Positions 25,813 through 39,394 of a stretch of 64,000 nucleotides of DNA are shown one piece after another. The stretch's first letter is position 1. Every line of letters begins with the position of its first letter. The stretch is taken from contig NZ_JAFMSZ010000001.1 in NCBI RefSeq assembly GCF_017916505.1, positions 1,178,001 to 1,242,000 of the forward strand. The letters are read 5' to 3'. The stretch comes from Naasia sp. SYSU D00057. Its GTDB lineage: Bacteria > Actinomycetota > Actinomycetes > Actinomycetales > Microbacteriaceae. The notes beneath the pieces are model-generated. The model did no database searches and had not been told where the DNA came from. It saw nothing but the letters and a program-made list of their open reading frames with translations. A program made the translations under genes and the position numbers.

Positions 25813-26250
25813 TCATGCCCGCCGCCACCCGGCGGGGGTCTCCTCGACCAGTCCCTCCAGCTCCAGGAGGCCCAGGGCGGAGCGGACGGCCGCAAGGCTG
25901 AGACCGGAGTGCCGCGCCAGCTCCTCCACCGGCCGGGGCCGCGAGGAGAGGGCGTCGAGCAGGCGTCCCTGCTCGGGATCGCGCCGCGCCTCCGCCGGTG
26001 CCGGGTCCGCCGGACCGAGGACGAGCTCGGCCATCTCGTCGGCGTTGGTCACGCAGACCGCGTCGAACTCGCGGAGCAGCCGGTGGCACCCGGTTGAAGT
26101 CGCCGATGTGACGGGTCCGGGGACGGCGCCGAGCGGACGCCCGAGGGCCGCCGCGTGCCCGGCTGTGTTGAGGGAGCCGGACCGCATCCCGGCCTCGACC
26201 ACGATCGTCGCGAGCGACGCCGCCGCGATGAGCCGGTTCCGCTGCGGGAA
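25813..26250 (-). pseudogene. dprA: dprA, 3' fragment cut off by the mobile element
   Basis: This frame encodes the C-terminal part of the DNA-processing protein: FPQRNRLIAAASLATIVVEA, GSLNTAGHAAALGRPLGAVPG, and a winged-helix-like end (LARHSGLSLAAVRSALGLLELEGLVEETPAGW). QRNRLIA...A..GS..TA..A...GR...AVPG is the diagnostic second half of the DprA Rossmann fold. The rest of the gene lies at 37093-37865. The frame continues into the element up to 26376, but those residues belong to the integrase region. No start is available for a functional product. Confidence 0.93.
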
Positions 26251-26266
26251 ACGTAGGCTGTATACG
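26243..26266. other. attL: left junction of the element
   Basis: The shared core TGCGGGAA (26243-26250) joins dprA 3' sequence to element sequence. The arm TGTATACG (26259-26266) is the inverted partner of CGTATACA at the right end. The arm touches the integrase GTG start, so integrase binding could also affect its own expression. Confidence 0.8.
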
Positions 26267-27729
26267 TGTCCGCCACCCGTGCCGCTGTCTACCTCCGGAT
26301 CTCGCGCGACGCTGAAGCCCTCGGGCTCGCCGTCGACCGGCAGCGAGAGGACTGCAAGCGCCTCGTCGCCGCGCACGGCTGGACCTTGACCGAAGAGTAC
26401 GTCGACAACTCGATCTCGGCCTCAAAGAGGACGGTCTTCCGCCCGGCCTACGATCGCCTCGTCCGCGACTACGCCGCCGGCCGCTTCGACGCCCTGGTCG
26501 TCTACGATCTCGACCGCCTGACGAGGCAGCCGCGCCAGCTTGAGGACTGGATCGACGCCGCAGAGGAGCGCGGGCTCGTCATCCTCACGGCGAACGGCGA
26601 GGCGGATCTCTCCACCGACAACGGACGGCTCTTCGCCCGCATCAAGGCCTCGGTCGCCCGCGCAGAGATCGAGCGCAAAGGTGCTCGGCAGAAGCGCGCG
26701 AACGTCCAGCGGGGCGAGCAGGGACGCCCCATCCCCGGCCGACGCCGCTACGGCTATGAGTCGGACGGCGTGACGCCCCGAGAGGGCGAGGCGGCAGTCG
26801 TTCGGCGAATGTTCGACCACGTCGCGACGGGGGGCTCGATCCGCTCCCTGTACCTCGCTCTCGAAGGGGAAGGCGTTGACCCGGCGCCGGGCAAGGAGTG
26901 GAGCCCCCGCCGTGTCCGCGACATCCTGACAAACGAGCACTACGCGGGGTACGTCCGCCACCGAGGAGCGGTCCTCAAGTCCGACGTCGTCGAGCCGATC
27001 GTGGATGAGGCGCTCGCCGCCGACGTCCGAGCACTCCTCGCCGACCCCACCCGCAAGACAACCCCCGGCAACGCCCCCCGGCACCTCGCGAGCGGGATCG
27101 CCCGGTGCGGAGTTTGCGGTGACGCGATCATCTGGATGCGCGAGTATCGGTGCCGCCGGACGACTCACCCGTCCATCACCGGACCGCGGCTTGAAGGGCG
27201 CATCCGGCAGGAGATCGCCCGTGCCCTTCTGACCTCCGGCCCGGACGTGTTTGACGGCGCCGAAGTAGGCACGATCGCCGCTCTGGTCGAGCGTCGCCGT
27301 CGCAATGCAGAGGCGGTCGCAGCCGTTCTCGCCGACCGCGACGAGGGGCTCGTCCCTGCCGACGTTGCTCGCTCCCGGCTTCTCGGCCTTCGCACCGCCC
27401 GTGAGGGAATCGAGGCCGCGCTCGACGCCGCTCGCTCATCGCACACCTCCTCCGGCGCCCTCGCGACGATCGCGCATGAGTTGCTCGGTGAGGCCACCGA
27501 ATGGCCGAAGGAGGATTTCGCCACTCTCGAGGCGACCATCATCGCCCGCTTCGACGCCCTCGACCTCGACCGTCGGCGAGAGGTCCTGCGCGCGCTCCTC
27601 CACGTCGAGATCGGCCCCGGTCGGCACCCGTCGCGGGTGCGGGTCGAGCACCGCCTGGCCACTCACCTCAATCCCCTCGACCAGGCCGGGAACCCCCAGG
27701 ACGAGGACGCGCGCTACTACACCGACTAG
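26266..27729 (+). CDS. Large serine recombinase (element integrase)
   Basis: A 487-residue site-specific integrase of the large serine family. The resolvase-type catalytic domain (about 1-145) starts AAVYLRISRDAEALG with nucleophile S13, then shows VVYDLDRLTRQPRQLEDWI and RAEIERKGARQKRAN. The recombinase domain (about 160-260) includes GKEWSPRRVRDILTNEHYAGY. A zinc-ribbon-like patch (ARCGVCGDAIIW) and a long charged coiled-coil region (about 340-440) follow, as in phiC31- and Bxb1-type enzymes. The GTG start lies at the very end of the attL arm. It inserts the element into dprA; no excision factor was identified. Confidence 0.95.
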   Translation: MSATRAAVYLRISRDAEALGLAVDRQREDCKRLVAAHGWTLTEEYVDNSISASKRTVFRPAYDRLVRDYAAGRFDALVVYDLDRLTRQPRQLEDWIDAAEERGLVILTANGEADLSTDNGRLFARIKASVARAEIERKGARQKRANVQRGEQGRPIPGRRRYGYESDGVTPREGEAAVVRRMFDHVATGGSIRSLYLALEGEGVDPAPGKEWSPRRVRDILTNEHYAGYVRHRGAVLKSDVVEPIVDEALAADVRALLADPTRKTTPGNAPRHLASGIARCGVCGDAIIWMREYRCRRTTHPSITGPRLEGRIRQEIARALLTSGPDVFDGAEVGTIAALVERRRRNAEAVAAVLADRDEGLVPADVARSRLLGLRTAREGIEAALDAARSSHTSSGALATIAHELLGEATEWPKEDFATLEATIIARFDALDLDRRREVLRALLHVEIGPGRHPSRVRVEHRLATHLNPLDQAGNPQDEDARYYTD

Positions 27730-28184
27730 GCCGCTCCCCGCCGGCCGCCCTAGTCCATGTAGCGCTGGCCCGCTCCCTTGCAGGGGAAGGAGGTTGGCGT
27801 ACGCCCGGCCCATTCCTTCAGCAGAGGAAGAGACCTTGTCCCGCGACCGCGGCCCACTCCTCCAGTAGAGGAAGAAACGCGCTCTCCATCGTCGCGCCGC
27901 GCGGATCTCCCCCGGCGCGCGGCCGGACGTGCTCTCCGAGGGGCTCGGCCCGTCTGGCGAAGGTGCCGCCCCGGCTTCTGGGGCTCGATCGAGATACGTG
28001 ACCCTGGGCGCGATCCCTGACGCCCGCCGCGGGCGGCACCTTCCCCCCTGCCCGATCTGGGCGGATCTCGCGTCGCCGGCCCACTCCTAACTAGGGCACG
28101 CCACCGCCCTCGACGGGCGCCCTCGGCGTTCCCTTGCTTCTTTGCCCTCGATCCGCTCGCACACCTTCTGAGAGGAGGCGCCGC
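27730..28184. other. Structured non-coding stretch after the integrase gene
   Basis: This 455-bp gap has no credible gene. It holds three spaced hairpin units (27767-27877), a 12-bp perfect inverted repeat AAGGTGCCGCCC / GGGCGGCACCTT (27960-27971 and 28031-28042, 59-nt spacer), a direct repeat GCGGATCTC (27901 and 28061), and a fourth GGCCCACTCCT (28078-28088). The density of repeats suggests a structured RNA, an origin or transfer-like region, or a binding array. An AGAGGAGG binding site at 28171-28178 serves the next gene. Confidence 0.65.
27767..27877. repeat. Three imperfect repeats with internal hairpins
   Basis: Units begin GGCCC at 27767, 27807 and 27851 (40 and 44 bp apart). The second and third share GGCCCAYTCCTYCAGYAGAGG followed by AAGA; the first is more diverged. 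Each contains a short stem: CCCT-TGC-AGGG, TTCCT-TCAGCAG-AGGAA and TCCTC-CAGTA-GAGGA. The stems are kept although the sequence varies, which suggests a role in RNA or in protein binding. Confidence 0.65.
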
Positions 28185-28406
28185 GTGCCCACCATTCACC
28201 GATGCGCGGTCTGCGACCGCATCTACCGAGCGCGCGTCGACTCCCGGACCTGCTCGGCCTCCTGCCGGGCCGTCGCCCATCGGACGAAGCGGAACGCCGA
28301 GATCCTCGCCCTCATCGAAGCCGAGCAGCGGGCCGCGCTGACGGGCGACTTCGCGCAGCTACAAGCCCTCGAACGGCGCGCCCGCGACCTCCTCGGCGAC
28401 CGATGA
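28185..28406 (+). CDS. Small zinc-ribbon-like orphan protein
   Basis: A 73-residue protein starting at a GTG with an AGAGGAGG binding site 6 bp upstream. Its first half holds CAVC and CSASC motifs (VPTIHRCAVCDRIYRARVD; TCSASCRA), a four-cysteine zinc-ribbon pattern. Its second half is a charged helix (HRTKRNAEILALIEAEQRAA). Many small element-encoded DNA-binding proteins, including excision factors and regulators, look like this, but no family is recognised. It overlaps the next gene by ATGA. Confidence 0.72.
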   Translation: MPTIHRCAVCDRIYRARVDSRTCSASCRAVAHRTKRNAEILALIEAEQRAALTGDFAQLQALERRARDLLGDR

Positions 28407-28762
28407 GCGACGACACCGACGCCGCGCGCACCCGACGCAGCCGACGCAGCCGACGACCTCGGCTACATGAACCCCCGCGCCGGACGGCCTCCGGCACACC
28501 CGCGACTCCGACCACACCAGGAGCCCCAGACGTGACACGCCATTTCTTCCGCAGCACCGAATTTCGCGACCGCGCCGAGAAGCTCCTCGGCAAGGGGATC
28601 GGCGAGAACCACTGGATCGCCGCCGGCCTCGCCGTGGTGGTCGACCGCCTCGACAAGGTGATCGACCGGCTCGACGTCCTGGTCGACGCGCCCGCCGCGC
28701 CCGTCCCCTCCTTCGGGGAGGAGGCGGACGCCGCCGCCGAGGACGACTCGCCCATCTACTGA
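28403..28762 (+). CDS. Orphan protein coupled to the zinc-ribbon gene
   Basis: A 119-residue protein whose ATG overlaps the previous stop (ATGA). The N-terminal 45 residues are a low-complexity Arg/Pro/Thr tail. A compact helical part follows (TRHFFRSTEFRDRAEKLLGK, then WIAAGLAVVVDRLDKVIDRL), and the C-terminus is very acidic. No family is recognised. The heptad-like VDRLDKVIDRLDVLVD suggests oligomerisation. Confidence 0.6.
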   Translation: MSDDTDAARTRRSRRSRRPRLHEPPRRTASGTPATPTTPGAPDVTRHFFRSTEFRDRAEKLLGKGIGENHWIAAGLAVVVDRLDKVIDRLDVLVDAPAAPVPSFGEEADAAAEDDSPIY

Positions 28763-28832
28763 CCGACGCCGAGGAGACGCCGGAGCGGGCGAACCGTGCA
28801 GCAGCTTGCGACGCTGACGGAACGGACATCTT

Positions 28833-28870
28833 CCTATATAGGTGTTCAAGAGTCTCTCTCTCTCTTGAAC
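28833..28870. promoter_or_regulatory. AT-rich palindrome and hairpin upstream of the 299-residue orphan gene
   Basis: CCTATATAGG (28833-28842) is a perfect palindrome. It is followed at once by GTTCAAGAG (28844-28852), a TC-repeat loop, and CTCTTGAAC (28862-28870), a perfect 9-bp inverted repeat. A further ACCT-N7-AGGT repeat lies near 28908-28925. This is the most AT-rich pocket in the element and fits a promoter/operator or a melting region of an origin. Confidence 0.7.
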
Positions 28871-28964
28871 AACTAATAGAGAAGAAGTCCGAAGCGTCAC
28901 CGTTTCTACCTGTTACATAGGTCGCCCCGCTCCCGGCACCTCGGCCCATCCCCGAGAGCCCCCG

Positions 28965-29864
28965 ATGACCCACTCCGCCCTCGAGGCCCTCGCCGCCCTC
29001 GAGCTGGACCTCCGTCACCGTGACAAGCGTGACCGCCTCCGCGACCGGCGCGGCCTCCTCGAGCCCGACGCCGACGGACACGCCCTCGGCTACCGCATCC
29101 CGAGCCCCTTCCGGCTCGCGAGCGTCTACGTCGGCCCGTTGCTCCGCGAGGTCTACGACCTCCGACGCCGAGGCTCCGACGTCGTCGCTCGGCGCCTAGA
29201 CGCCCCCGAGGACCATTTCCAGCCGATCAAGCCCGAGGTGCTCGCCGACGTGCTCCTCGGGCGCCTCCGCGATCTCCCCGAGCGACACGACGCCCGCGAC
29301 TACTACCGCGACCTCCGCGCCTTCGCGTCCCTCGGCGCGCCACACCGCGTCAGCCGCTACCTCGCCGACACCGTCGCCGCGCTCCCGCGGACCGGCCTCC
29401 CGACCTACCGGGAGCGCGCAATTCGACCGCCCGCCGCGACGCCGGCCGAGCGGCTCGCGAAGCACCGGCAGAAGCTCGCGGACCGAGAACGCCTCTCCTC
29501 TGCATGGTGGCTCGAGGACTTCCTCGAGCCCGAGGACGAAACCGACCGCCCAAAGCCTGGCGCCCGATTCCACGCGCGGCAGCTCCTCGAGGACGCCCGC
29601 CACATCCTCGCCGACCTCGAGACGGACGAGGAGCCGATCGACGACGACGACGAGAACCCGCTCCGCTTCAAGTCACCTCGCGGCCCGATCTTCTACGCCG
29701 AGGCCGACCGCCTCATCGCCCCGCGCCGCCGCTCCGCCTCCGGCTACTACTACGAGATCCCCGCGCAACCAAAGGAGAACGTTCTGCCCACCGCAACCGC
29801 CGACCTCGGAGCCGTCGTCCTCGACCGCGCCCTCGACCGAGGTCGCCGACTCAATCGCCCCTAA
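28965..29864 (+). CDS. Orphan protein of the element, 299 residues
   Basis: A charged soluble protein with no recognised family. It begins MTHSALEALAALELDLRHRD, is rich in Arg, Asp and Leu throughout, and has helical stretches (SVYVGPLLREVYDLRRRGSD; EVLADVLLGRLRDLPERHD). An acidic region (ETDEEPIDDDDENPL, about 225-240) precedes a short hydrophobic/aromatic patch (SASGYYYEIP). No signal peptide or membrane segment. Its place after the AT-rich hairpin region, and its length, would suit a replication or regulatory protein, but no motif proves it. Confidence 0.7.
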   Translation: MTHSALEALAALELDLRHRDKRDRLRDRRGLLEPDADGHALGYRIPSPFRLASVYVGPLLREVYDLRRRGSDVVARRLDAPEDHFQPIKPEVLADVLLGRLRDLPERHDARDYYRDLRAFASLGAPHRVSRYLADTVAALPRTGLPTYRERAIRPPAATPAERLAKHRQKLADRERLSSAWWLEDFLEPEDETDRPKPGARFHARQLLEDARHILADLETDEEPIDDDDENPLRFKSPRGPIFYAEADRLIAPRRRSASGYYYEIPAQPKENVLPTATADLGAVVLDRALDRGRRLNRP

Positions 29865-29865
29865 C

Positions 29866-30006
29866 GTGCGATCCCAGATCCGCCACCCCCTCGCATCCGG
29901 CGACCGCGTCGGCGCCCTCCGCCTGCAAGAGGAGGAAATCCGCCGCACCGGCACGACCGCCCCTGCCGTCATCGACCTCGACTCTCGTCGCCGCCCCCGC
30001 GGCTGA
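29866..30006 (+). CDS. Possible 46-residue small protein
   Basis: A short frame starting at GTG one base after the preceding stop. It reads VRSQIRHPLASGDRVGALRL and then a helix with QEEEIRR, and ends in SRRRPRG. It is supported only by tight packing between two better genes and by lack of an alternative in this gap; no binding site is obvious. Confidence 0.35.
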   Translation: MRSQIRHPLASGDRVGALRLQEEEIRRTGTTAPAVIDLDSRRRPRG

Positions 30007-30066
30007 CGTGACCCGCAACCGCTCCCCTCGGCGCTTGCATTCGCCCCTCTCACCGAAGGACCCCTC

Positions 30067-30690
30067 TTGAACCTCCTGATCTCCCAGACCAGCACGCCCC
30101 GCCGCGTCTCGGCCTCGCACGGCACCGCGAATTACCCGCACCCGACCGACGCCCCGCCCGAGTGGCTTTGGCGTGGCATCGCTCGCGCACCCGAAGCCCG
30201 CGACGCATGGCTCGAAGCGAACGCGCTCGGCGAGCAGCTCCGGCGCGACTGGCGCCGGGCGGGCTCGAAGCTCGCCGACCTTCGCGACTCGAACCCCCTC
30301 GCCGCTGTCCTCGAGCAGGCGCAGCGCGAGTTCGACGCCCTGGAGCACCAGCTCGCCGACCAGACCCGCCGCAGCAAAGAGGCGCTCCAGGCGTTCGACC
30401 GCATCGTCTCCAGCGGGACCGTCGGCGTCGAAGAGCGGAAGCAGCTCGCCGCCCGCTACGCCCTTGACCAGCAGCACCGCGCCGAGCAAGCGCTCGCCGA
30501 ACTGACTGAGGCCCTCGACTCCCGCGACCAGGCCTACCGCATAGCTGGCACGCCCGGCGTCGACTGGCGTCTCCGCCCAGGTTGCGACTACGGCAAGCAG
30601 CGCTTCGCCCTTGAGACCGTCGGCAAGCGCGTCTCCTACTTCGACTCCCGCACGGTCCTCGCCGCCGCCGAGGGCGAGGTCTCGGCATGA
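30067..30690 (+). CDS. Orphan protein with coiled-coil centre, 207 residues
   Basis: Starts at a TTG with a GAAGGA binding site about 7 bp upstream. The middle (about 50-150) is a continuous charged helix (LEQAQREFDALEHQLADQTR, ERKQLAARYALDQQHRAEQA) likely to form a coiled coil, and the C-terminal part is more compact (VDWRLRPGCDYGKQRFALE, VSYFDSRTVLAA). No family is recognised. It overlaps the next gene by ATGA and so belongs to a tightly packed operon. Confidence 0.65.
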   Translation: MNLLISQTSTPRRVSASHGTANYPHPTDAPPEWLWRGIARAPEARDAWLEANALGEQLRRDWRRAGSKLADLRDSNPLAAVLEQAQREFDALEHQLADQTRRSKEALQAFDRIVSSGTVGVEERKQLAARYALDQQHRAEQALAELTEALDSRDQAYRIAGTPGVDWRLRPGCDYGKQRFALETVGKRVSYFDSRTVLAAAEGEVSA

Positions 30691-30830
30691 GCCCCAACAT
30701 CGTCGCCCGCATCGTCGTCGAGGTGCTGGAGAGCGCCCCGAATCCTTACGAGACCGCCCGCACCCGGCAGACCGCGGAGGCCGCAGCCGGCGCCGAGGCG
30801 ACCCGCATCGCGAAGGAGATCGGCCGATGA
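30687..30830 (+). CDS. Small orphan protein, 47 residues
   Basis: The ATG overlaps the previous stop (ATGA), and its own stop overlaps the next ATG (ATGA), so coupling on both sides supports it as real. The sequence MSPNIVARIVVEVLESAPNP followed by an Ala/Thr-rich helix (ETARTRQTAEAAAGAEATRI) has no recognised family. Confidence 0.55.
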   Translation: MSPNIVARIVVEVLESAPNPYETARTRQTAEAAAGAEATRIAKEIGR

Positions 30831-31420
30831 CCCCTGCCCCCGCCACCGCGACCGCCTCCGGCGAATTGACGCCGCAGCAGACCGCGTTCCGCGATTCGCT
30901 GATCGCAGCTCGGCAGCGCGGGGCCGTCCGCTTCGCCTCCTCCCGAGAGGCCTCCCGGACGCCCCCGGCGCTTCGCACGCCGTACTCACGCGACGCCTGG
31001 CTCGGGCTCCACCTGAGCGAACGGGAGGCGCACCTCAGAACGGCCGTCAGGGAGCGCGCGACGAGGGAGGCCGTCCTCCTCGGCGCCGCTCCGCCCGTCG
31101 CCGAGCCGATGCTCGCGTCGCCGGCCGAGAGGGCGCGGCCAGAGCCCGAGCGCAGGCCTAGCTCGAAGGTCGCATCGCCCTACGTGGTTACGTGTGCCGG
31201 GCTATGCGGCCGATGGCTCCCGGCGTCCGGCCCGCGACCCGTCGTCCGCTTCTGCGGCGGCTTCGCGACTGCGGCTCCAGCCCCGCGCAGGCACGAGGAT
31301 TCGCTCGAAGCCGTGGTTCGCGCTCTCCGGGCGGAACGTGACGACGACGAGCGCGCCCCCAGGCCGATGCCGCCGAGCGGGCGCAAGGCACGCCGCCGGC
31401 CGAGGTGCCTCGGCGACTAG
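30827..31420 (+). CDS. Orphan protein with a C-terminal cysteine patch, 197 residues
   Basis: Last gene of the left operon. A helical N-terminal half (LTPQQTAFRDSLIAARQRGA; LHLSEREAHLRTAVRERATR) leads to a Pro/Arg-rich linker and a small segment with CAGLCGRW and RFCGG, which could bind zinc like the cysteine motifs of the first gene of the run. The tail is strongly basic (RKARRRPR). No family is recognised. Confidence 0.6.
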   Translation: MTPAPATATASGELTPQQTAFRDSLIAARQRGAVRFASSREASRTPPALRTPYSRDAWLGLHLSEREAHLRTAVRERATREAVLLGAAPPVAEPMLASPAERARPEPERRPSSKVASPYVVTCAGLCGRWLPASGPRPVVRFCGGFATAAPAPRRHEDSLEAVVRALRAERDDDERAPRPMPPSGRKARRRPRCLGD

Positions 31421-31457
31421 ACCAGGAGGAGAGCGGGCTCTCGTCGGCCCGCTCTTC

Positions 31458-31874
31458 CTACCGCCCGAAGTCGATTGTCAGATCGAAGCGCCGGTCGAGG
31501 TCGATGCCATCAATGTTGACGATGCCCTCCGCCGGAACCTGACCTCTCAGCCTGTGGCTCGCGAACCACTCTTCCGGGAAGAACGCCACCGTCTGGCGGG
31601 CGTTCGCGCCGACCTTCACATCGGCCGAAGCGGACGTCTTCTGCTCGCTGATCCCGTGATTGAACAGGAACACCACCGGGTCCTCGCCGCGGATGAGTTT
31701 GAGCCCGAACTGCAGCGCTCCCTGCTCGCGCGGGACCCATACGCTCAGAAGCAGAGTCTCGAAGCCTGCTGAGGGCGGAGGACCGTTCGTCTCCCACGTC
31801 ACCTCCAGCTCGCCAGTAGTGGGCGAGACGACAGCCCACACTCCTTCGATCTCGGGGACGCTATCCTCTGCCAT
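31458..31874 (-). CDS. Beta-rich protein of unknown function, 138 residues
   Basis: A soluble protein beginning MAEDSVPEIEGVWAVVSPTT, with alternating hydrophobic strands (ELEVTWETN, FGLKLIRGEDPVVFLFNHG, RQTVAFFPEEWF, NIDGIDLDRRFDLTIDFG). No family or catalytic motif is recognised. It is the most downstream gene on the minus strand after the ATPase and HEPN-like genes, separated from the latter by 179 bp that include two hairpin repeats, so it may be separately expressed. Confidence 0.65.
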   Translation of the reverse strand: MAEDSVPEIEGVWAVVSPTTGELEVTWETNGPPPSAGFETLLLSVWVPREQGALQFGLKLIRGEDPVVFLFNHGISEQKTSASADVKVGANARQTVAFFPEEWFASHRLRGQVPAEGIVNIDGIDLDRRFDLTIDFGR

Positions 31875-31968
31875 GACCCGAGCGTAGCTCGACGCGCGCG
31901 TCCCCCTGGGGGCCCCCTCCCCCCTCCCCGGTCGGCCCCAGCCCGGTACGGCATAGCAAGGCGGAACG

Positions 31969-32023
31969 CGCGCGAATCTCAGGTTCCGCGAAGGGAACCG
32001 CGCGAATCTCGGGTTCCGCGAAA
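31969..32023. repeat. Two 30-bp-spaced repeats with internal inverted repeat
   Basis: CGCGCGAATCTCAGGTTCCG and its one-mismatch copy start 30 bp apart, the first followed by CGAAGGGAACC. GGTTCC and GGAACC form a perfect inverted repeat within and between the units. Located between the HEPN-like gene and the 138-residue gene; may be an operator or attenuator. Confidence 0.6.
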
Positions 32024-32053
32024 GCAGCCGAACTGCGCGTGACGAGGGGGCGA

Positions 32054-32674
32054 TTAGTCCGCGTCCACGCCCTGCTCCTCGGCTGTCCTGCGATGTCCGC
32101 CCGTGACGATCGAGATACCTTCCCCCGTGAAGTTGGCGCGGGCGTAGGCGACTGGCGCTACATGCGGATCGGGACGCGCGGGGCGCACGACTTGAGAACC
32201 CCACCGGTCCGGGAAGCTGAACCCACCCTCGCCAGCCTCGGCGCGGCCGAGGGCCAGGACCACCTCTTCCCAGCAGTGGCGTACGAGCCGACACGCGTTC
32301 TGCACCCGGAGGAGTGCCACTCGCACGTTTTCAGCCGAGACCTCCATATGGAACCCGATTCCCCTCCCCCGCACCTGCACATTCTCGGAGGCCCATCGTG
32401 AGTGCAAGATTTCGTTGCGCCCTCGCATCGCCTCCGCTGAGCCTGAAACCGCGCTGAGGAGTAGCTCGACGGCTGCCGCCGGCAGGCCCTGAGCGCGAGC
32501 AAGCGGCTCGACGAGTTCGAGCATCCTCGCGAAGCCCGGGTTCCCTATCGCCGTTGCCGAGACTTCCGGGCTGTCGCTGACGAGCTCGTAGACCAGGGTC
32601 CGCAGGAGACTCTCCAACTCGGCTGCAGCAACGGCCATCCTGCCGAGCTCCATGAGCGTCTCGTCGTCCGGCAC
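32054..32674 (-). CDS. HEPN-like protein, candidate RNase partner of the ATPase
   Basis: A 206-residue, mainly helical protein. The first part (about 9-95) is a bundle of amphipathic helices ending in AEAMRGRNEILHSRW. RNEILH (R86 to H91) matches the R-N-x-x-x-H catalytic motif of HEPN ribonucleases such as those in Cas13 and many toxin and abortive-infection proteins. The C-terminal part is less structured. The GTG at 32674 is chosen; an ATG 7 codons later is possible. It lies 37 bp downstream of the P-loop ATPase gene in the same direction, so an ATPase-gated HEPN effector is a reasonable model. Assignment rests on one motif and the helical context. Confidence 0.6.
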   Translation of the reverse strand: MPDDETLMELGRMAVAAAELESLLRTLVYELVSDSPEVSATAIGNPGFARMLELVEPLARAQGLPAAAVELLLSAVSGSAEAMRGRNEILHSRWASENVQVRGRGIGFHMEVSAENVRVALLRVQNACRLVRHCWEEVVLALGRAEAGEGGFSFPDRWGSQVVRPARPDPHVAPVAYARANFTGEGISIVTGGHRRTAEEQGVDAD

Positions 32675-32711
32675 TCCCGCTCCGCATCCCGCCCGCCGTT
32701 CGGCGGAGCGC

Positions 32712-34010
32712 TCAGTCCTCGTCGAAGAAATCCAGCGGCTGGTCACCCGCCAGGTCGTTAGTGATCTCGTCCGGCTCATCCCAGGGCCACGTCGCCCCTC
32801 CGTACTTCCGGAAGAAGAGGAAGGAGCGGTCGATGAGTTGAACTCTCTTCCCGGCACGGTGGTAGGTCAGCACCGGCGGCCGGATCTTGATCTTGACCTG
32901 AAGCCGATCAACACGCTCCAGCGCCTGAGTGAGGTCGCTCGCTCGAATACCGGAGTCGCCGATCGCCGTGAGAACTTCTCGAGACTCGACGCCTCGGGAA
33001 AGCAACTGCTCGTCGGGCAGGGACGTGTAGGCGCGGAGCAGATGGCGGTACACCACCAGGCCCTCGCGCATCCGACGCATGCCGCCGACGAAATTCGAGG
33101 CGAAGGTCTCGAATCGCCCACGCATCTGGTCTGCGACCTCGGCGCGGGCCTGGGTCAAGCTTTCGCCAACCTCGAGGACCACGTGCTCCCGTCGGTCATC
33201 GATCCCCTCCGCGATGAGGAGGCGCTCGACCAGCCGGTGGAGAAGACCTACGTTCCCGTACGCGTCCGCTATCAGAGCGTCCGCGAGGGGCTGCGAGAAG
33301 GTGATGTTGAGCGGCTCCTCCCCGTTCTGCAGGACCTGCCGAAGCTCGGGCTCGGTCCACTGCAGGTGGAAGTCCTCGATCCGGCCCTCCAGATCACCGT
33401 TGAAGTACGTGAGCAGATGACTCTGCGCCCAGACGCCCATGATGATGACGAACAGGCCGTACTCGCCGAGCGCCTTCATCCAGGAGGCGAAGACCTCCTG
33501 CTCGGACTCCTTCAGGTAGTGGAAGTCCTCGACAACCAGGCGTAGGCCAGAAGCGGCCAGGATCGTTGCTACCCATCGAAGGTTCCCGGTGGATTGTCCG
33601 ATGAACTCCTCGGTGATCTGCACCTCCTTCGACGCTGTTCCTGATGCCTTCGCACCAACCTTGAAACGAGCGAGAACCTTGCCAACATCGAGGTTCGCAT
33701 TCAGGTCCAGCGTCCCCTTGAGCGCCCCGGTGCCGGTTCGGGTCAGCTGAGCAGTGATTCCGAGGGCGCCGAGAGCCTCCTCGAGAACCGATGCGGCCGT
33801 CGCGGTCGTCGTGGCCTGAACGACGAGCATGTCGTCGATCGCCAGTCCCTTCTCGCGCAGCCACGACTTGCCCTGCTTGCTTCCGCCGTGAACGCTGATG
33901 TGCCGGTTCGTCTCGAGAGCGCGTGCGAAGGCGTCATCGAGACGCCCCCGGTCGACGTAGGCCGGCGAGGTGACCGGAACGCCGATGCCGTACACGTCGG
34001 CGACCTTCAT
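32712..34010 (-). CDS. P-loop ATPase (AAA/STAND-like), candidate defence sensor
   Basis: A 432-residue NTPase. Walker A is GGSKQGKS (42-49) after a VDRGRLDDAFARAL helix; Walker B is LRLVVED (156-162). A sensor-like strand follows (GLFVIIMGVWAQS), then ERHITE-type helices and a C-terminal all-helical half (about 270-432) ending in an acidic tail. The region between Walker A and B is unusually long and contains a Gly/Ala/Lys-rich insert (residues 90-130). The overall order resembles AAA/STAND ATPases of prokaryotic conflict systems. The start at 34010 is chosen; a longer form begins at 34052. It leads a two-gene unit with the HEPN-like gene and diverges from the small gene at 34129. Confidence 0.75.
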   Translation of the reverse strand: MKVADVYGIGVPVTSPAYVDRGRLDDAFARALETNRHISVHGGSKQGKSWLREKGLAIDDMLVVQATTTATAASVLEEALGALGITAQLTRTGTGALKGTLDLNANLDVGKVLARFKVGAKASGTASKEVQITEEFIGQSTGNLRWVATILAASGLRLVVEDFHYLKESEQEVFASWMKALGEYGLFVIIMGVWAQSHLLTYFNGDLEGRIEDFHLQWTEPELRQVLQNGEEPLNITFSQPLADALIADAYGNVGLLHRLVERLLIAEGIDDRREHVVLEVGESLTQARAEVADQMRGRFETFASNFVGGMRRMREGLVVYRHLLRAYTSLPDEQLLSRGVESREVLTAIGDSGIRASDLTQALERVDRLQVKIKIRPPVLTYHRAGKRVQLIDRSFLFFRKYGGATWPWDEPDEITNDLAGDQPLDFFDED

Positions 34011-34108
34011 CTTCGTCAACTTCAACCGCCCCCGCCGCGCACCCGAGCACATCGCATTGCCGACAACCCTACGGGCAACCCCGAACGGCGATCTGTCGGC
34101 ACTCCGCG

Positions 34109-34126
34109 TTCGAAGGTATGTTCGAA
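34109..34126. promoter_or_regulatory. SOS-box-like sequence before the 96-residue gene
   Basis: TTCGAAGGTATGTTCGAA contains TCGAAG-GTAT-GTTCGA, one base from the mycobacterial/actinobacterial LexA consensus TCGAAC-N4-GTTCGA. It ends 2 bp before the ATG at 34129 and lies about 100 bp from the divergent ATPase start, so LexA could control either gene. Confidence 0.55.
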
Positions 34127-34128
34127 AG

Positions 34129-34419
34129 ATGGGGAAGAACCAGCGCTACGGAAGCGACCTCTCTGAGGAGGCGATCCTGGAGGCGATCCTCCGTCCGCAA
34201 CCGGTCAGCCTCACTAGGCGCGAGGTCGGCGAGGAGATAATCGTGCCCGAAACGGGCGCTCCGCTGGTTCGCGCCTGGGTCAGGTTCCCAGAGACGTCGG
34301 TGGAGCTATCGGGCCGGGCAATCGCCTGGACAAAGAAAGCAGTTTGCGTTGAGTTCACGCTTCGTGACGGACAAGTCCGCCGCGCGTGGGTCTGGGCGAG
34401 CGCAGTGAGCCGCGCCTAG
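34129..34419 (+). CDS. Small conserved-looking protein, 96 residues
   Basis: Starts MGKNQRYGSDLSEEAILEAI and continues PQPVSLTRREVGEEI, then a strand-rich half with ETGAPLVRAWVRFPE and ending RDGQVRRAWVWASAVSRA. Proteins with the (M)xKNQRYGxDL opening are, as I recall, widespread hypothetical proteins of actinobacteria and their mobile elements, with no assigned function. The SOS-box-like site overlaps its leader. It overlaps the HNH gene by 4 bp tail to tail. Confidence 0.68.
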   Translation: MGKNQRYGSDLSEEAILEAILRPQPVSLTRREVGEEIIVPETGAPLVRAWVRFPETSVELSGRAIAWTKKAVCVEFTLRDGQVRRAWVWASAVSRA

Positions 34420-35420
34420 GCGCCGGGTGACACCCGGAAGTCGGTCGCAAGATGATGCGCGTAGTAGCGGCGGCTCCCTGGATTCTTCGACCAGTGCTCC
34501 GAGGTCGCCCCCCGCAGGTACTCATCCACGTAGGCACTCGACGGTCCCCCTGGCAGTTGAGTACTGATATGGAAGGCACCATCAGGACCGACGCCGACGA
34601 ATCCGCGCCCGAACAACTCGTCGCATCCAAAGCGGCAATTCAGCATCGCGATGTTGGTGAAGTCGAGTTTCTCTTCGGCACTGCATTGCGACCGGCGCTT
34701 GATATGCGCCGCGACAAGGAACTCGGACGAGAAGGTCCGCCGGCAGAGCGAACACCGCCCGAACGGCCCGGGCACGAGCAATTTCCGAAGGTACCCTTGC
34801 TCAGCTCGCCGGAGAGAGACAACCTCCTGCTCCAACTGCTCAAACGCTGGCGTGGCGACCAGTTCCGAGTATTCCTCTGGAGAGTTGATGCGGTGCGGCG
34901 CCGCCTCGAGAGACTCCAGCAGGGCAACAAGAGCGTTGCTCTCTCCCTCAGGGAGGACGGTGAACTCACGCACCTGCGCACCTGGCGCTCGGCCAATGGC
35001 GTCGTTCATCACCCCGTACTCGATATCAATGTCAATGGGGGTGGTCATGGAAAACATGTACTCCCATGTCTGCATATCGCCATTGGCAGTAGGGCTGTGC
35101 CCCCAAAGATGCGCGGCTGCTTCCGGGCTGTGAAAAACGTGGGTGATCACAGCAGTGCGCGACAACCGACCGCTCCCGGCGAAAACGACGACATCTCCTG
35201 CCGCCAGCCTGAGCCAGCGCGACACCATCTGACGCCTTTCGCCAGGCCGCGTCCCCCAAACCGGCACGAGACCGTCAGGGTGCGCTAGTCGCAGGGCCGC
35301 AAGGTCCGCTTCGCCGACTAATGGTCGGAGAGTGTCAATCGACACCGGCCTATCCACTGTCGCTGCAAGATGCGCCTGTGAGAGGGCATTGGCCGACGGC
35401 TGAAGGGCAACCCTTGTCAT
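34416..35420 (-). CDS. EVE-like plus HNH endonuclease (candidate modification-dependent restriction)
   Basis: A 334-residue protein with two parts. The N-terminal region (about 50-125) has VPVWGTRPGERRQMVSRWL, AAGDVVVFAGSGRLSRTAVI and a late LWG...TWEYMFSM, which resembles the EVE/PUA-like fold that reads modified bases. A helical linker follows. The C-terminal region is an HNH nuclease: GRCSLCRRTF (C223, C226), LVAAHIKRRSQC (H239), then FTNIAMLNCRFGCDELFGRG. C-x2-C, AAHI and LF.RG are diagnostic of the HNH restriction group. The fusion suggests cleavage of DNA with modified bases, such as phage DNA. The HNH assignment is strong; the EVE-like one is tentative. It overlaps the pyrophosphohydrolase gene by ATGA. 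Confidence 0.82.
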   Translation of the reverse strand: MTRVALQPSANALSQAHLAATVDRPVSIDTLRPLVGEADLAALRLAHPDGLVPVWGTRPGERRQMVSRWLRLAAGDVVVFAGSGRLSRTAVITHVFHSPEAAAHLWGHSPTANGDMQTWEYMFSMTTPIDIDIEYGVMNDAIGRAPGAQVREFTVLPEGESNALVALLESLEAAPHRINSPEEYSELVATPAFEQLEQEVVSLRRAEQGYLRKLLVPGPFGRCSLCRRTFSSEFLVAAHIKRRSQCSAEEKLDFTNIAMLNCRFGCDELFGRGFVGVGPDGAFHISTQLPGGPSSAYVDEYLRGATSEHWSKNPGSRRYYAHHLATDFRVSPGA

Positions 35421-35782
35421 TTCTTCTCTTCCCCTGGGTGTTCGCGCTTCACGGCTTGACCTCTCACGAGATCGATCGGATAGCGAACTGCATTCTGGAT
35501 AAGTTTGCGCTCCGCGACCGAGATTAGGTCCGCGCCGACGACATCGGCGAGCCTCACCAGGTAGATCAGTACATCGGCGAGTTCATCCTCCAGCGACCGT
35601 AGATGATTCGGGTCACGCAACCATTCCTCGATCTCGTTGTCGTGCACCCATTGAAAGAGTTCATTCAGTTCGCCTACTTCGCCGGTTAAGGCCATAGTCA
35701 GGTTGCGGGGGGTGTGAAACTGCTCCCAATCACGCTCCCTCGCGAAGGCGCGGATCTTGTCCCGGAGATCGTCGATGGTCAT
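35417..35782 (-). CDS. MazG-type nucleotide pyrophosphohydrolase
   Basis: A 121-residue all-alpha NTP pyrophosphatase. The metal-binding pattern E-x2-E ... E-x2-D is present: GEVGELNELFQW (E35, E38) and LEDELADVLIYLVRLAD (E67, D70). This size matches the RS21-C6/dCTPase branch, which hydrolyses (d)NTPs, including modified ones, to monophosphates. It is translated just before the EVE-like/HNH gene with an ATGA overlap. The pair could act together, one on the modified nucleotide pool and the other on modified DNA; that link is inferred. Confidence 0.9.
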   Translation of the reverse strand: MTIDDLRDKIRAFARERDWEQFHTPRNLTMALTGEVGELNELFQWVHDNEIEEWLRDPNHLRSLEDELADVLIYLVRLADVVGADLISVAERKLIQNAVRYPIDLVRGQAVKREHPGEEKK

Positions 35783-36031
35783 CTCGCCTTCCTAGTCCAC
35801 GTCAAGGTCATGAGCAGCGCCACACACCGGGAGCGACGGCACCCTGGGCCGCGATCGCGATCCTTCTCGGACGCCTAGGAGTGCGAACCTAGGTGTTTCT
35901 CCGGCGCCGTGCCGCCTCCTGCACGATGGCTCACTCCGATCACGCCCTGATCGCGAACCACGGGGGCGCTATCCTCGTCGAGGGGGAACTGGCTAGCCGC
36001 GCTGGACCTCCGCAGGTATCTGGAGGGGACC

Positions 36032-37069
36032 GTGTCGAGTACTCCCACGGTTGAATACGGGTCGTTCTACAAGTTCGTCACCTCCATCGGAGTGTTCTTC
36101 ATCGCCGCCGCCGGCCTAGTCCCGTGGGCCGCGTTGCAACTTCACCCGGCCCTTCTGGTATCCACCGAGACGTTGTCCGGGCTCACGAATCAGGGCGAGC
36201 ACGCCGTGCGAGAGCAGCAGAGGCTGCTGTCGGCGATAATCGACGACCTTCCTGCGACGTCCTTCTCGCTGTTCGCTCTGGGCGTGGTCGTCCTGCTCCT
36301 AGGGCTCATTCCCTGGTACCCGCGGCAACGCAAGGCGGACGAGCGTGAGGATGCAGAGACGGAGGAGGCGAGACTCCGCATCCAGGCCATGACACCTGCT
36401 CAGACTCACGAGAAGGACGTGCTGGAGGCCGAGTCTGCGGTTCAAGAGGCGGAGTCAGCCAGCACCGAGCCCGAGGCGCCGCAACTCGAAGAGCCTCCTG
36501 TGTCCCGCGCCGTTCAAAGCCGTATCGCATTGGACAACTACATCCGAGTAGAGGGACTCTTTGTCGAGAAGCTGCAGGCGGCTCTCCGAGAGTCGCACAG
36601 CGTTCGCCGCAACGTGCGCATCTCCGGACAAGCCAACTTCAGTTTCGATGCAGACGCCCTGGCGGAGCCGCTGCGACGCGACGGGCGCACCATCCTCGTC
36701 GAGGTCAAGGTCGGCAAGCGCATGATCCCTCTGGCTTTGGTGAGTACCGCCCTCAGAAGAACCGCGGAGGCGGCTCGGCGGCTGAGCGACTCGTCTGGCG
36801 CACCCGCGACGGGACTTGCAATCTTTGTCTCGGTCGAAGGCGACGACAGGTTGCTGGATGCAGTATCGAGAAGGATCACCCGCCATCTGTACCGTCAAGG
36901 GGGGCTCCCTCCAGAGGCGATTGCGCTCCTGGCCACGGAGTCGGGACTTCAGTCGCTCGAGCCCGGCGAGTTGAGGCGAGCGCTCCAAACCTTCGAAGGC
37001 ACAGCCCCCTCCGTCCTTCAGCTGAAAGATGGGCACATCGACGCAGCCGTCGACGTCGCGGAAGACTGA
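36032..37069 (+). CDS. Membrane-anchored PD-(D/E)XK-like nuclease protein
   Basis: A 345-residue protein starting at a GTG with a GGAGGGG binding site. Two membrane segments lie at about 12-33 and 76-95 (VTSIGVFFIAAAGLVPW; FSLFALGVVVLLLGLIPW), with a short extracytoplasmic loop between. An acidic, Ala/Glu-rich coiled-coil linker (about 100-160) leads to a cytosolic domain. That domain contains FSFDADALAEPL (D206, D208) and TILVEVKVGKR (E224, K226), the spacing and strand pattern of a PD-(D/E)XK nuclease core. Membrane-tethered nucleases of this design occur in anti-phage systems, but the exact family is not recognised. It ends 2 bp before the right attachment arm. Confidence 0.7.
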   Translation: MSSTPTVEYGSFYKFVTSIGVFFIAAAGLVPWAALQLHPALLVSTETLSGLTNQGEHAVREQQRLLSAIIDDLPATSFSLFALGVVVLLLGLIPWYPRQRKADEREDAETEEARLRIQAMTPAQTHEKDVLEAESAVQEAESASTEPEAPQLEEPPVSRAVQSRIALDNYIRVEGLFVEKLQAALRESHSVRRNVRISGQANFSFDADALAEPLRRDGRTILVEVKVGKRMIPLALVSTALRRTAEAARRLSDSSGAPATGLAIFVSVEGDDRLLDAVSRRITRHLYRQGGLPPEAIALLATESGLQSLEPGELRRALQTFEGTAPSVLQLKDGHIDAAVDVAED

Positions 37070-37070
37070 G

Positions 37071-37100
37071 CGTATACAAGTCGACTTTCTGGTGCAGGAA
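37071..37100. other. attR: right junction of the element
   Basis: The element arm CGTATACA (37071-37078) is followed by 14 bp and the shared core TGCAGGAA (37093-37100), where dprA sequence resumes. In the excised circle this arm would face TGTATACG of the left end at nearly equal distance from the core (14 and 13 bp). Confidence 0.8.
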
Positions 37101-37865
37101 GCGCCAGCGGGTCGGTGACGAGCCGCAGGGCAGCTCCGACACGACCGCGCCCGACTCGGCGATGCGGGCGAGCAGCGCCTCGTGCCCGCTCGGGTAGAAC
37201 CGGTCGACGCCGCCGGCGAGGAACGCGACCGTCGCTCCCCCGCCGGCCAGCGCAGCGCGGTGGGCCATGCCGTCGATGCCGTACGCCGCGCCCGACACGA
37301 TGGCGAAGCCCCGATCGGCGAGGCCGCTCGCCGCCTCGGCGCAGACGTGCTCGCCGTAGCCGGTGGCCGCTCGGGCGCCGACGAGGGCGATCGGCAGCGG
37401 CGCACGGAGCAGGGACGGGTCCCCCAGGCACCACAGGGCCATCGGCCCGTGCGGCCCGAGGTCCGCCAGTCCCGGCGGCCAGGCGGGATCGTCGGGCAGC
37501 ACCAGCCGGACGCCGCGCGCGGCGGCCGCGGTGAGGAACCGCACGGCGTCCGCCGCCACGAGCCGCGGGCGCCAGCGCTCCTCGGCGGCCCGCACCGCCT
37601 CCGTCGTCAGCGGCTCGCCGGTGGCCTGAGCGACCTCGCGGGCGAGGCCGGCCGGGTCGTGGTCCTCGAGCACCGCGGCGAGCGCGCCGGCGGCGCCGAG
37701 GACGTCGACCAGGAGTCCCGCTACCGAGTCCCCCGGCTCCGCGATCCCGCTCCACGCCGCTCGGGCGAGCGCCTCGCCCAGCGTGTCGGCGCCGAGCGGC
37801 TCGCCGGCCGGCCGCACCGCCGCAACGGCGCGGCGCACCTCCTTCTCGTCCAGCCCCAGAATCAC
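37093..37865 (-). pseudogene. dprA: dprA, 5' fragment truncated by the mobile element
   Basis: This carries the GTG start and the first 257 or so residues of DprA, the protein that loads RecA on incoming single-stranded DNA during transformation. Visible are the N-terminal SAM-like region, and the Rossmann part with ALVGARAATGYGEHVC, IVSGAAYGIDGMAHRAAL (SGxAxGID motif), FLAGGVDRFYPSGHEALL and SELPCGSSPTRWRFL. Past the junction the frame runs on to 36876 through unrelated, low-complexity residues antisense to the membrane nuclease gene. Its start overlaps the comM stop (GTGA), the usual comM-dprA coupling. The second half lies at 25813-26250. Confidence 0.95.
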
Positions 37866-39394
37866 GTCACGGACCTCCTCAGCAGCAGGGCCCGGCCCAC
37901 CTGCTCGGAGCCGGGGTGGTCGACGGCGTCGAGGTCGGCCAGCGTCCACGCGATGCGGAGGACGCGGTCGTACCCGCGCATGGTGATGAGCCCGCGCTCG
38001 AGCGCCCGGTCGACGGGCGCGAGCACGGAGCGGCCGAGGGCCAGAGCCGGCGAGCGCAGCACCGGACCCGGCACCTCGGCGTTCGCCCGCCATGCCGTGC
38101 CACCGAGCCGCGAGGCGGCCCGATCCCGTGCGGCGGCGACCCTCGCGCGGGCGGTCGCGGAGTCGAGCCGGGGCTGCTCGTCGCGGAGCCGCAGCTGCGC
38201 GGCGGTGACCCGGGCGACACGGATCCGGATGTCGATCCGGTCCAGGAGCGGGCCGGAGAGCCGCTTGAGGTAGCGCATCCGCACCGCGACCGGGCACGTG
38301 CAGCGGTTCTCGGGGCCGCCCCACTCCCCGCACGGGCACGGGTTGGCGGCGAGCACGAGTTGGAACCGGCCGGGGAAGCGGGCGACGGCGCTCGCGCGCG
38401 CGATGGTGATCTCGCCGGATTCGAGCGGCTGGCGCAGCGTCTCCAGGGCGGCGGAGCTGAACTCGGGAGCCTCGTCGAGGAACAGGACCCCCGACGAGGC
38501 GCGCGCCGCCGCACCGGGGCGGATCACCGCGCTGCCGCCGCCCACCATGGCTGCTGCGGTGGCGGTGTGGTGCGGGTTCTCGAACGGCGGCTCCGTGACG
38601 AGCGCGCCGCCGATCGGCAGCCCGCACAGCGACCGGAGGGAGGTCGCCTCGAGTGCCGCCTCCCCATCGAGCGGCGGCAGGATGCCCGGCAGGCGGGCGG
38701 CGAGCATAGTCTTTCCGGCACCGGGCGGTCCGACCATGAGCAGGTGGTGTCCGCCTGCCGCGGCGACCACCAGGGCCTCGACGGCCTCGTCGTTGCCGAC
38801 GACGTCGGAGAGATCCCCGGCCGGCGAGGCCGGCGGCGGTACGGGCGGCGGCTGCAGCTCGTCGACCGGCTGGGGCTCGAGCTCGGCGCCGTGCCAGATG
38901 GCGGCATCCCGCAGGCTCGCGACCCCGACCACGCGGATGCCGGGCACGAGCTCGGCCTCGGCGCGGTTCGCCGACGGGACGAGCACGGTAGGGACCCCGG
39001 CGCGCGCCGCGGCGAGCACGGCGGGCAGCACGCCCCGCATCGGCCGCAGCCGGCCGTCGAGGGCGAGTTCGCCGAGATGCGCGGCGCGCCCCGCAGACCC
39101 GACGGGCACCTGCCCGGCGGTGGCGAGGGTCGCGACGGCGATCGCGAGGTCGAAGGCGGAGCCCTGCTTGGGCAGGTCGGCCGGCGAGAGGTTGACCGTG
39201 AGCTTCCGCTTCGGCCACTCGAGGCCGGAGTTCCCTATGGCCGCGCGCACGCGCTGCTCCGCCTCACGGAGGGCGGAGTCGGGCAGGCCGATGAGCTTGA
39301 AGCCGGGACTCTGATTGGACAGCTCGGCCTCGACGTCGACGAGGGCGCCGGACAGCCCGACGAGGGCGACCGAGCGGGCGCGACCGACGGGCAT
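37862..39394 (-). CDS. comM: YifB/ComM family Mg-chelatase-like ATPase
   Basis: A 510-residue AAA+ protein; ComM is a hexameric helicase aiding branch migration of incoming DNA in natural transformation. The N-terminal half has the Lon-like fold (GFKLIGLPDSALREAEQRVR; NLSPADLPKQGSAFDLAIAV). The ATPase part has Walker A VGPPGAGKTMLAARLPG, Walker B VLFLDEAPEF, and the zinc cluster NPCPCGEWGGPENRCTCP typical of YifB. The C-terminal domain contains LSGPLLDRIDI. It is coupled to yraN and dprA by short overlaps. The start at 39394 is preferred to the longer Arg-rich extension. Confidence 0.95.
   Translation of the reverse strand: MPVGRARSVALVGLSGALVDVEAELSNQSPGFKLIGLPDSALREAEQRVRAAIGNSGLEWPKRKLTVNLSPADLPKQGSAFDLAIAVATLATAGQVPVGSAGRAAHLGELALDGRLRPMRGVLPAVLAAARAGVPTVLVPSANRAEAELVPGIRVVGVASLRDAAIWHGAELEPQPVDELQPPPVPPPASPAGDLSDVVGNDEAVEALVVAAAGGHHLLMVGPPGAGKTMLAARLPGILPPLDGEAALEATSLRSLCGLPIGGALVTEPPFENPHHTATAAAMVGGGSAVIRPGAAARASSGVLFLDEAPEFSSAALETLRQPLESGEITIARASAVARFPGRFQLVLAANPCPCGEWGGPENRCTCPVAVRMRYLKRLSGPLLDRIDIRIRVARVTAAQLRLRDEQPRLDSATARARVAAARDRAASRLGGTAWRANAEVPGPVLRSPALALGRSVLAPVDRALERGLITMRGYDRVLRIAWTLADLDAVDHPGSEQVGRALLLRRSVT

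Follow-up and report, generated by a model that had tools for sequence, protein, structure and literature searches.

An integrated element within dprA of Naasia sp. SYSU D00057 and a recombinase lineage found at the same codon

How did the dprA gene of Naasia sp. SYSU D00057 come to lie in two pieces, and does the DNA between them gain from that position? The locus belongs to a stretch of 64,000 nucleotides (contig NZ_JAFMSZ010000001.1, positions 1,178,001 to 1,242,000; hereafter the window). A preliminary description of it had proposed that an element carrying its own large serine recombinase (LSR) and defence-like cargo has split dprA, and that it thereby protects itself from displacement by transformation. 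We consider it fairly probable that the insert integrated site-specifically and belongs to an LSR lineage with the Gln codon of dprA (WRFL-Q-RNRLIAA) as its usual bacterial attachment site (attB), and that it acts through the mechanism set out below. Set against the open papers searched, what appears to be new is the lineage itself, with the dprA codon as its usual site and with members in phages, prophages and small defence-bearing elements.

The two halves of dprA and their junctions

In the genome of this strain, which comprises 3.36 Mb in 21 contigs, two matches to PF02481 (DprA) were found (E<=0.001), on the same strand and about 10.8 kb apart, covering positions 4-147 (134 bits) and 142-207 (73 bits) of the model. 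Compared with the uninterrupted 401-aa DprA of congener G004, the N-terminal piece aligns over residues 1-268 (71% identity, window 37865..37062) and the C-terminal piece over residues 254-381 (87% identity, window 26256..25876), i.e. the fragments match an intact DprA end to end. Between its two cores the insert spans 10,850 bp, both ends carrying TG on the + strand (26243-26244 and 37093-37094), which bears out the strand, order and spacing of the halves given in the preliminary description; the LSR is likewise where it had been placed, at one end, next to the C half. When the 60-bp host flanks are joined at TG, the result is in frame (WRFLQRNRLIAA) and matches intact congeners. The dprA pieces adjoin end to end (in-frame SGAVVSELPCGSSPTRWRFLQRNRLIAAASLATIVVEAGM), and over the in-frame reading PTRWRFLQRNRLIAA of the joined flanks G004 and G006 are identical. 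A crossover at the GTATAC hexamer common to both ends was rejected because the core TG restores an in-frame gene and centres the repeat of the phage-type attachment site (attP), whereas by eye the frame shifts at the hexamer.

A continuous dprA match is present in all eight congeners searched (G001-G008), and comM, which lies intact beside the N half, is 86% identical to G004 comM over residues 1-499. Since the insert lies inside the conserved DprA domain and the genome holds no second dprA match, loss of DprA, as the preliminary description supposed, is very likely.

Recurrence at the codon and the recombinase lineage

Among 398 Microbacteriaceae genomes, 388 gave a dprA match, and 263 of these were inspected by coordinates: the best 150 match rows (one per genome), the 33 matched of 37 genomes chosen for odd or missing scores, and 80 of 80 in a further batch. 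The remaining 125 dprA-positive genomes, with weaker matches than the best 150, stand outside the counts and are not taken as intact. In at least 11 of the inspected genomes, the two parts of dprA lie on one contig more than 8 kb apart. LSRs of one clade have cut the gene at the codon used in the window in seven of these 11: Naasia (10.9 kb), G033 (9.2 kb), G314 (10.4 kb), Agromyces allii (G369, 9.0 kb), Mycetocola zhadangensis (G272, 8.4 kb), G353 (17.1 kb) and Frigoribacterium faeni (G381, 18.0 kb). The split lies near residue 280 in G159 and G329 (60 and 32 kb apart), with an LSR from a different lineage at the C-half, near residue 150 in G335 (9.6 kb) and near residue 195 in G126 (24 kb), where three consecutive large open reading frames (ORFs) occupy the break (L130, 1451-6920). 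The first of the three matches a tyrosine recombinase (4e-8), the second has no match and the third a weak one (2e-4, below cut-off); the trio resembles recombinase-in-trio elements.

Scanning genome contigs by LSR alignment yielded 62 loci, 12 of them at the dprA codon, a share that is biased upward because the scan patterns came from the dprA lineage. Three of the 12 are genomes of the family set above; the other nine are Arthrobacter sp. ISL-28, ISL-48 and EPSL27, Glutamicibacter soli, Agromyces sp. H66, Curtobacterium sp. MCPF17_052, Microbacterium sp. SMR1 and cf332, and a metagenome-assembled genome of Solirubrobacterales. Other genera thus hold elements at the same codon, and this recurrence of codon and related LSR across many genera rules out chance or an assembly artefact.

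Several further dprA loci are irregular. The gene stops at a contig edge at residue 264, near the element site, in G247 (end of C220, L136) and at residue 212 in G326 (end of C289, L137), and it lies in two contigs in G176 (C28, C20); these breaks perhaps hide further insertions. G150 (C1:1849676-1855639, L133) has a full-length dprA followed by a partial second copy (128-270) and, 4 kb on, residues 294-399, a pattern suggestive of an element that carried in or duplicated dprA. In G072, G376, G400 and others there are additional DprA-like matches, up to seven per genome and many of them ~330-350 aa long, which are possibly carried by mobile elements.

The junctions of 12 elements (ISL-28 being left out) were compared for attP reconstruction. 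On the dprA strand, most of the 12 read TTCCTG-CA on the N side and CA-GCG(G/C)AAC on the C side. Once attP was joined around the core dinucleotide, the best inverted-repeat match fell exactly at the core in 10 of the 12, the Naasia repeat matching at 12 of 21 positions, which 3 of 2000 shuffles equalled, and the other nine being equalled by 0-39 of 2000 shuffles. The two off-centre cases are Glutamicibacter soli, where codon anchoring was wrong, and Curtobacterium, whose codon is GCC (Ala) and whose core differs yet by eye is the same at both ends. A core-centred repeat together with a shared dinucleotide is what LSR recombination predicts.

For the recombinase phylogeny, 137 LSRs were extracted and 127 rows entered a tree built by a quick method, five repeats (L213, L250, L150, L150_b, L172) and five sequences set aside for length (L159, L162, L182, L197, L199) being omitted; target labels were assigned by us from locus comparisons. 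All 21 dprA-codon rows fall within one 32-row clade (support 100), which extends to Micrococcaceae; its remaining rows are those of five isolated phages, of L175, an element sited in comM, and of five loci without an assigned site. The dprA label requires 4 changes (3 forced) and is not strictly one block, the mean for shuffled labels being 14.7. The identical LSRs of L248 and L179 probably represent one strain. Of 15 comM-site rows, 13 group in a separate 21-row clade, L232 lies beside that clade and L175 in the dprA clade. On this tree, the specialisation of the clade for dprA appears to be old and not absolute.

The 3' end of comM (~residue 473-477 of 499), adjoining dprA, is the insertion site of a second LSR group, at loci that include L053/L103 (G033), L054/L105 (G012), L171, L181 and L187; in G033 and Microbacterium sp. 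SMR1 (L181, L183) a comM-end and a dprA-codon element lie side by side. The contig scan gave 12 comM-site loci, with L193, L194 and L198 assigned from an LSR just upstream of intact dprA. In G110 (C1:1785140-1787866) and G302 (C21:26263-29020) an LSR lies ~0.7 kb upstream of intact dprA, and these are possibly further comM-site elements.

Related LSRs (50-54% identity) are encoded by Microbacterium phages Caron, Barnstormer, UtzChips, SuMoo, Gretchen and Percival and by Arthrobacter phage Soondubu, phages of 45-49 kb whose annotation, where consulted, states no integration site. Stretches of 5.4 kb from five of the seven (without UtzChips and Gretchen) were scanned with a profile of eight dprA-element attPs. 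The best site lay directly before the integrase gene in all five, scoring 32.0 in Soondubu, 25.0 in SuMoo, 20.2 in Barnstormer, 19.3 in Caron and 19.0 in Percival, against at most 6.2 elsewhere; the core, as read by eye, is TG in Soondubu, SuMoo and Percival, and Caron and Barnstormer have TT. Some free phages probably use the dprA codon, the prediction being firmest for Soondubu. Against this stand the poor leave-one-out score of the Naasia attP itself and L143, which among genomic loci has the LSR closest to those of the Microbacterium phages and lies outside dprA.

Gene content of the insert and of its relatives

Features of the locus are collected in Table 1. The recombinase has a Resolvase catalytic domain followed by a Recombinase domain, as in LSRs of the phage-integrase type. 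The claim of defence-like cargo stands for the PDC-S59 protein and is weak for the HNH protein, the PADLOC model matched by the latter being that of an HNH type II restriction enzyme. The RNEILH stretch of the 267-aa cargo ORF is HEPN-like as a motif, not by a search match. Among the loci compared, w299 and w207 matched other dprA-codon elements only, while the protein at 33970..34419 also has a weak match in L155, which is not a dprA locus. No family was found for w299 in Pfam and PHROGs scans; its predicted structure (mean predicted local distance difference test, pLDDT, 64.6) had no Foldseek match in BFVD or PDB (E<=0.001), and a viral-contig scan with w299 as sole query gave no relative.

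Table 1. Position of the integrated element, its genes and the flanking host genes in the window
Feature	Position	Strand	Remarks
Whole integrated element	26243..37094	.	Core TG at both ends
dprA C-terminal half, QRNRLIAAA to natural stop	25813..26244	-	
attL element arm with GTATAC	26243..26266	.	Directly 5' of LSR start codon
Large serine recombinase (LSR), 487 aa	26266..27729	+	PF00239 5.6e-28; PF07508 7.1e-13; phrog_95 integrase 6e-81
Small Cys-rich protein, 90 aa	28134..28406	+	Weak matches only (phrog_1271 HNH, E 0.004)
Backbone protein w299	28965..29864	+	Relatives in two other dprA-site elements (ISL-48, IMG/VR L200)
Backbone protein w207	30067..30690	+	Relatives in dprA-site elements G314, EPSL27, ISL-48
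Cys-containing ORF, 269 aa, start uncertain	30611..31420	+	Relatives in dprA-site elements G314, EPSL27; no family match
Cargo-cluster ORF	31458..32294	-	Last ~138 codons alone look coding (by eye); no family in Pfam, PHROGs or PADLOC
Cargo ORF, 267 aa, RNEILH stretch	32054..32857	-	No family in Pfam, PHROGs or PADLOC
PDC-S59 candidate anti-phage protein, 446 aa	32712..34052	-	PADLOC PDLC05049 E 1.3e-109; P-loop-like stretch by eye
Small conserved protein, start likely near 34129	33970..34419	+	Common to dprA-site elements G314 and M. zhadangensis
HNH / Cys-rich nuclease-like protein, 334 aa	34416..35420	-	PADLOC HNH 2.7e-4; phrog_14240 7e-28 (unknown function)
MazG-like pyrophosphatase, 121 aa	35417..35782	-	PF12643 3.1e-9; phrog_3301 3e-14
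345-aa protein, membrane-like N-terminal part (by eye)	36032..37069	+	Last gene before attR; no family match
attR element arm with GTATAC	37070..37094	.	With left arm gives attP-like inverted repeat
dprA N-terminal half, ~residues 1-260, ends ...CGSSPTRWRFL	37093..37865	-	Frame continues ~70 codons into element
Host comM, intact	37865..39361	-	Directly upstream of dprA

An integrative and conjugative element, including the actinomycete type, was ruled out: no relaxase, FtsK/Tra or replication family is present in the insert ORFs (Pfam and PHROGs, 10 ORFs plus three more). The same scans recognised in the insert neither the terminase, portal, capsid and tail genes of a prophage nor the capsid, portal and terminase of a capsid-forming phage-inducible chromosomal island (cf-PICI).

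The relatives at the dprA codon are of several kinds. Those of G353 and F. faeni are small prophages (17-18 kb) with terminase, portal, capsid and tail-type genes, the terminase and portal matches of G353 lying below the Pfam cut-off. The eleven other elements delimited at both ends span 7.6-10.9 kb; a capsid protein was detected in five of the 11 by tblastn with two query capsids, a search that unrelated capsids would escape, and four of four tested matched the phrog_283 major head protein (8e-28 to 1e-30). In G033, whose capsid has a poor predicted structure (pLDDT 36), the four large non-LSR ORFs scanned gave no terminase, portal or tail match besides the capsid. With its tail-type match, the element of Curtobacterium may be the remnant of a prophage. 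IMG/VR contig L200 holds a capsid relative together with a w299 relative and so links the capsid-bearing and w299-bearing kinds. Among the elements examined the cargo differs: G033 encodes an N6-methylase, A. allii an Eco57I-like methylase and the G353 prophage a TIR effector, and the insert of G335, at another dprA site, encodes a FokI/AlwI-like nuclease. By comparison with these relatives, the Naasia insert is probably a defence-bearing, satellite-like element.

Loss of DprA, competing explanations and meaning

DprA protects incoming single-stranded DNA and recruits RecA (PMC11472951), and transformation may cure cells of mobile genetic elements (MGEs) (PMC4774983, PMC12637031). All 14 genomes tested, 11 with a split dprA, possess a ComEC-family gene whose frame is open. 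The C-half is open in 12 of 12 cases and the N-half in 11 of 12, these 11 being recovered by motif. Against its two nearest congeners, the Naasia gene has ratios of nonsynonymous to synonymous substitution (dN/dS) of 0.17-0.21 (N) and 0.11-0.13 (C), and these two congeners, as an intact pair, have 0.16 and 0.21, figures that are coarse because dS is near saturation; the split gene thus carries no surplus of amino-acid changes. Neither half has decayed, which argues against a permanent lock-out and implies that the break is young or often undone.

In the reading that we favour, the LSR would recombine attP with attB at the dprA codon. DprA would be lost while the element is resident, single-stranded DNA entering via ComEC would no longer be passed to RecA, and the host would then hardly be able to delete the element by homologous replacement; we infer that the element blocks chromosomal transformation and was selected for that. 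It would pay its way through its defence genes and would probably travel in phage particles, being a satellite-like representative of a family in which other members encode a capsid protein. It can probably also excise, restoring dprA. In the circular form, the gene at 36032..37069 would read across attP into the LSR; once integrated, the LSR would have hardly any room for an element-internal promoter because 22 bp separate its start codon from the core, and integration may thus turn the integrase down.

Several observations weigh against this reading. The insert has no recognised capsid, terminase, portal, tail gene, relaxase or replicase, and the satellite label consequently rests on its relatives. 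Its attP misfits the profile of seven others, with a leave-one-out score of -0.7 as compared with 27-42. The tree comes from a quick method and has long branches (e.g. L169), and dprA is not the sole target of the clade, because L143 (Microbacterium Root53) adjoins a different gene and L175 (Leifsonia sp. Root227) sits in mid-comM (residue ~329) with dprA intact. Undecayed halves fit recent insertion as well as reversal, and conserved dispensable genes attract LSRs in any case.

The last point leads to a rival that we hold possible though rather doubtful, in which dprA is a neutral landing pad, targeted as a conserved, near-universal and dispensable gene, and the loss of transformation is incidental and brings no advantage. 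LSRs do commonly target conserved coding sites (PMC10083194), and the dprA matches in 388 of 398 family genomes agree with this. However, breaks in dprA also occur near residues ~150, ~195 and ~280, with tyrosine-recombinase ORFs and a different LSR lineage among the agents, the neighbouring comM is targeted too, and DNA competence genes are reported as strongly enriched among LSR targets (Durrant et al. 2022, PMC10083194).

Alternatively, timed excision might restore dprA, the element acting as a switch of the gene, which seems unlikely to us. The comK prophage of Listeria is the precedent for such active lysogeny. Both open halves and their dN/dS, similar to that of the intact congener pair, are consistent with it, but recent insertion explains open halves equally, the ratios are coarse, and no recombination directionality factor was identified. 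That the element is a dead remnant, immobile and with dprA lost for good, is very improbable: its lack of a recognised capsid or terminase and the mere ~59% identity of the nearest LSRs fit such a fate, whereas the LSR is open and full length, attL and attR match and the dprA halves are intact.

The preliminary description could match the element to no named family. The class is not unknown, because breakage of competence genes by MGEs and the LSR preference for such genes are already in print (PMC4774983, PMC10083194). That MGEs break competence genes to avoid curing is a published idea (PMC4774983), and broken comM, comYC or ssbB have been read as anti-curing defence, the comM-site elements of Acinetobacter often bearing defence systems (PMC4774983, PMC11472951, PMC12637031); the Naasia insert differs in its target, dprA not being an insertion target in the passages cited, and in its actinobacterial hosts. 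The LSR elements of PMC10083194 resemble it in having the LSR beside the att site and in inserting inside conserved coding sequence; the main text of that survey does not mention dprA (its supplements may list it), and its target section describes no dprA-dedicated lineage or satellite-like elements. Neither dprA as an integration site nor a recombinase lineage of the dprA codon was found in the open PMC text searched. Phage satellites (PICI, cf-PICI, P4-like, and MulchRoom and MiniFlayer of Streptomyces) share a size of ~8-11 kb, an integrase at one end and defence-type cargo, some with a capsid gene (PMC10690885). Unlike them, G033 lacks a recognised terminase, portal and tail in the ORFs scanned, and the Naasia insert lacks a recognised capsid.

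More broadly, and only tentatively, dprA might be a dedicated docking site for actinobacterial phages, mini-prophages and satellite-like relatives, whose holder would disable the deletion route of the host and return dprA on excision. The finding makes the anti-transformation idea testable, at one gene (that of the RecA loader DprA), at a precise site and with more than one kind of recombinase, in a family that includes two genera with shown natural transformation (Rhodoluna lacicola and Aurantimicrobium photophilum, both Microbacteriaceae; PMC11577799). It also predicts integration sites for isolated phages, e.g. Arthrobacter phage Soondubu, and the lineage offers site-specific recombinases with a short conserved target.

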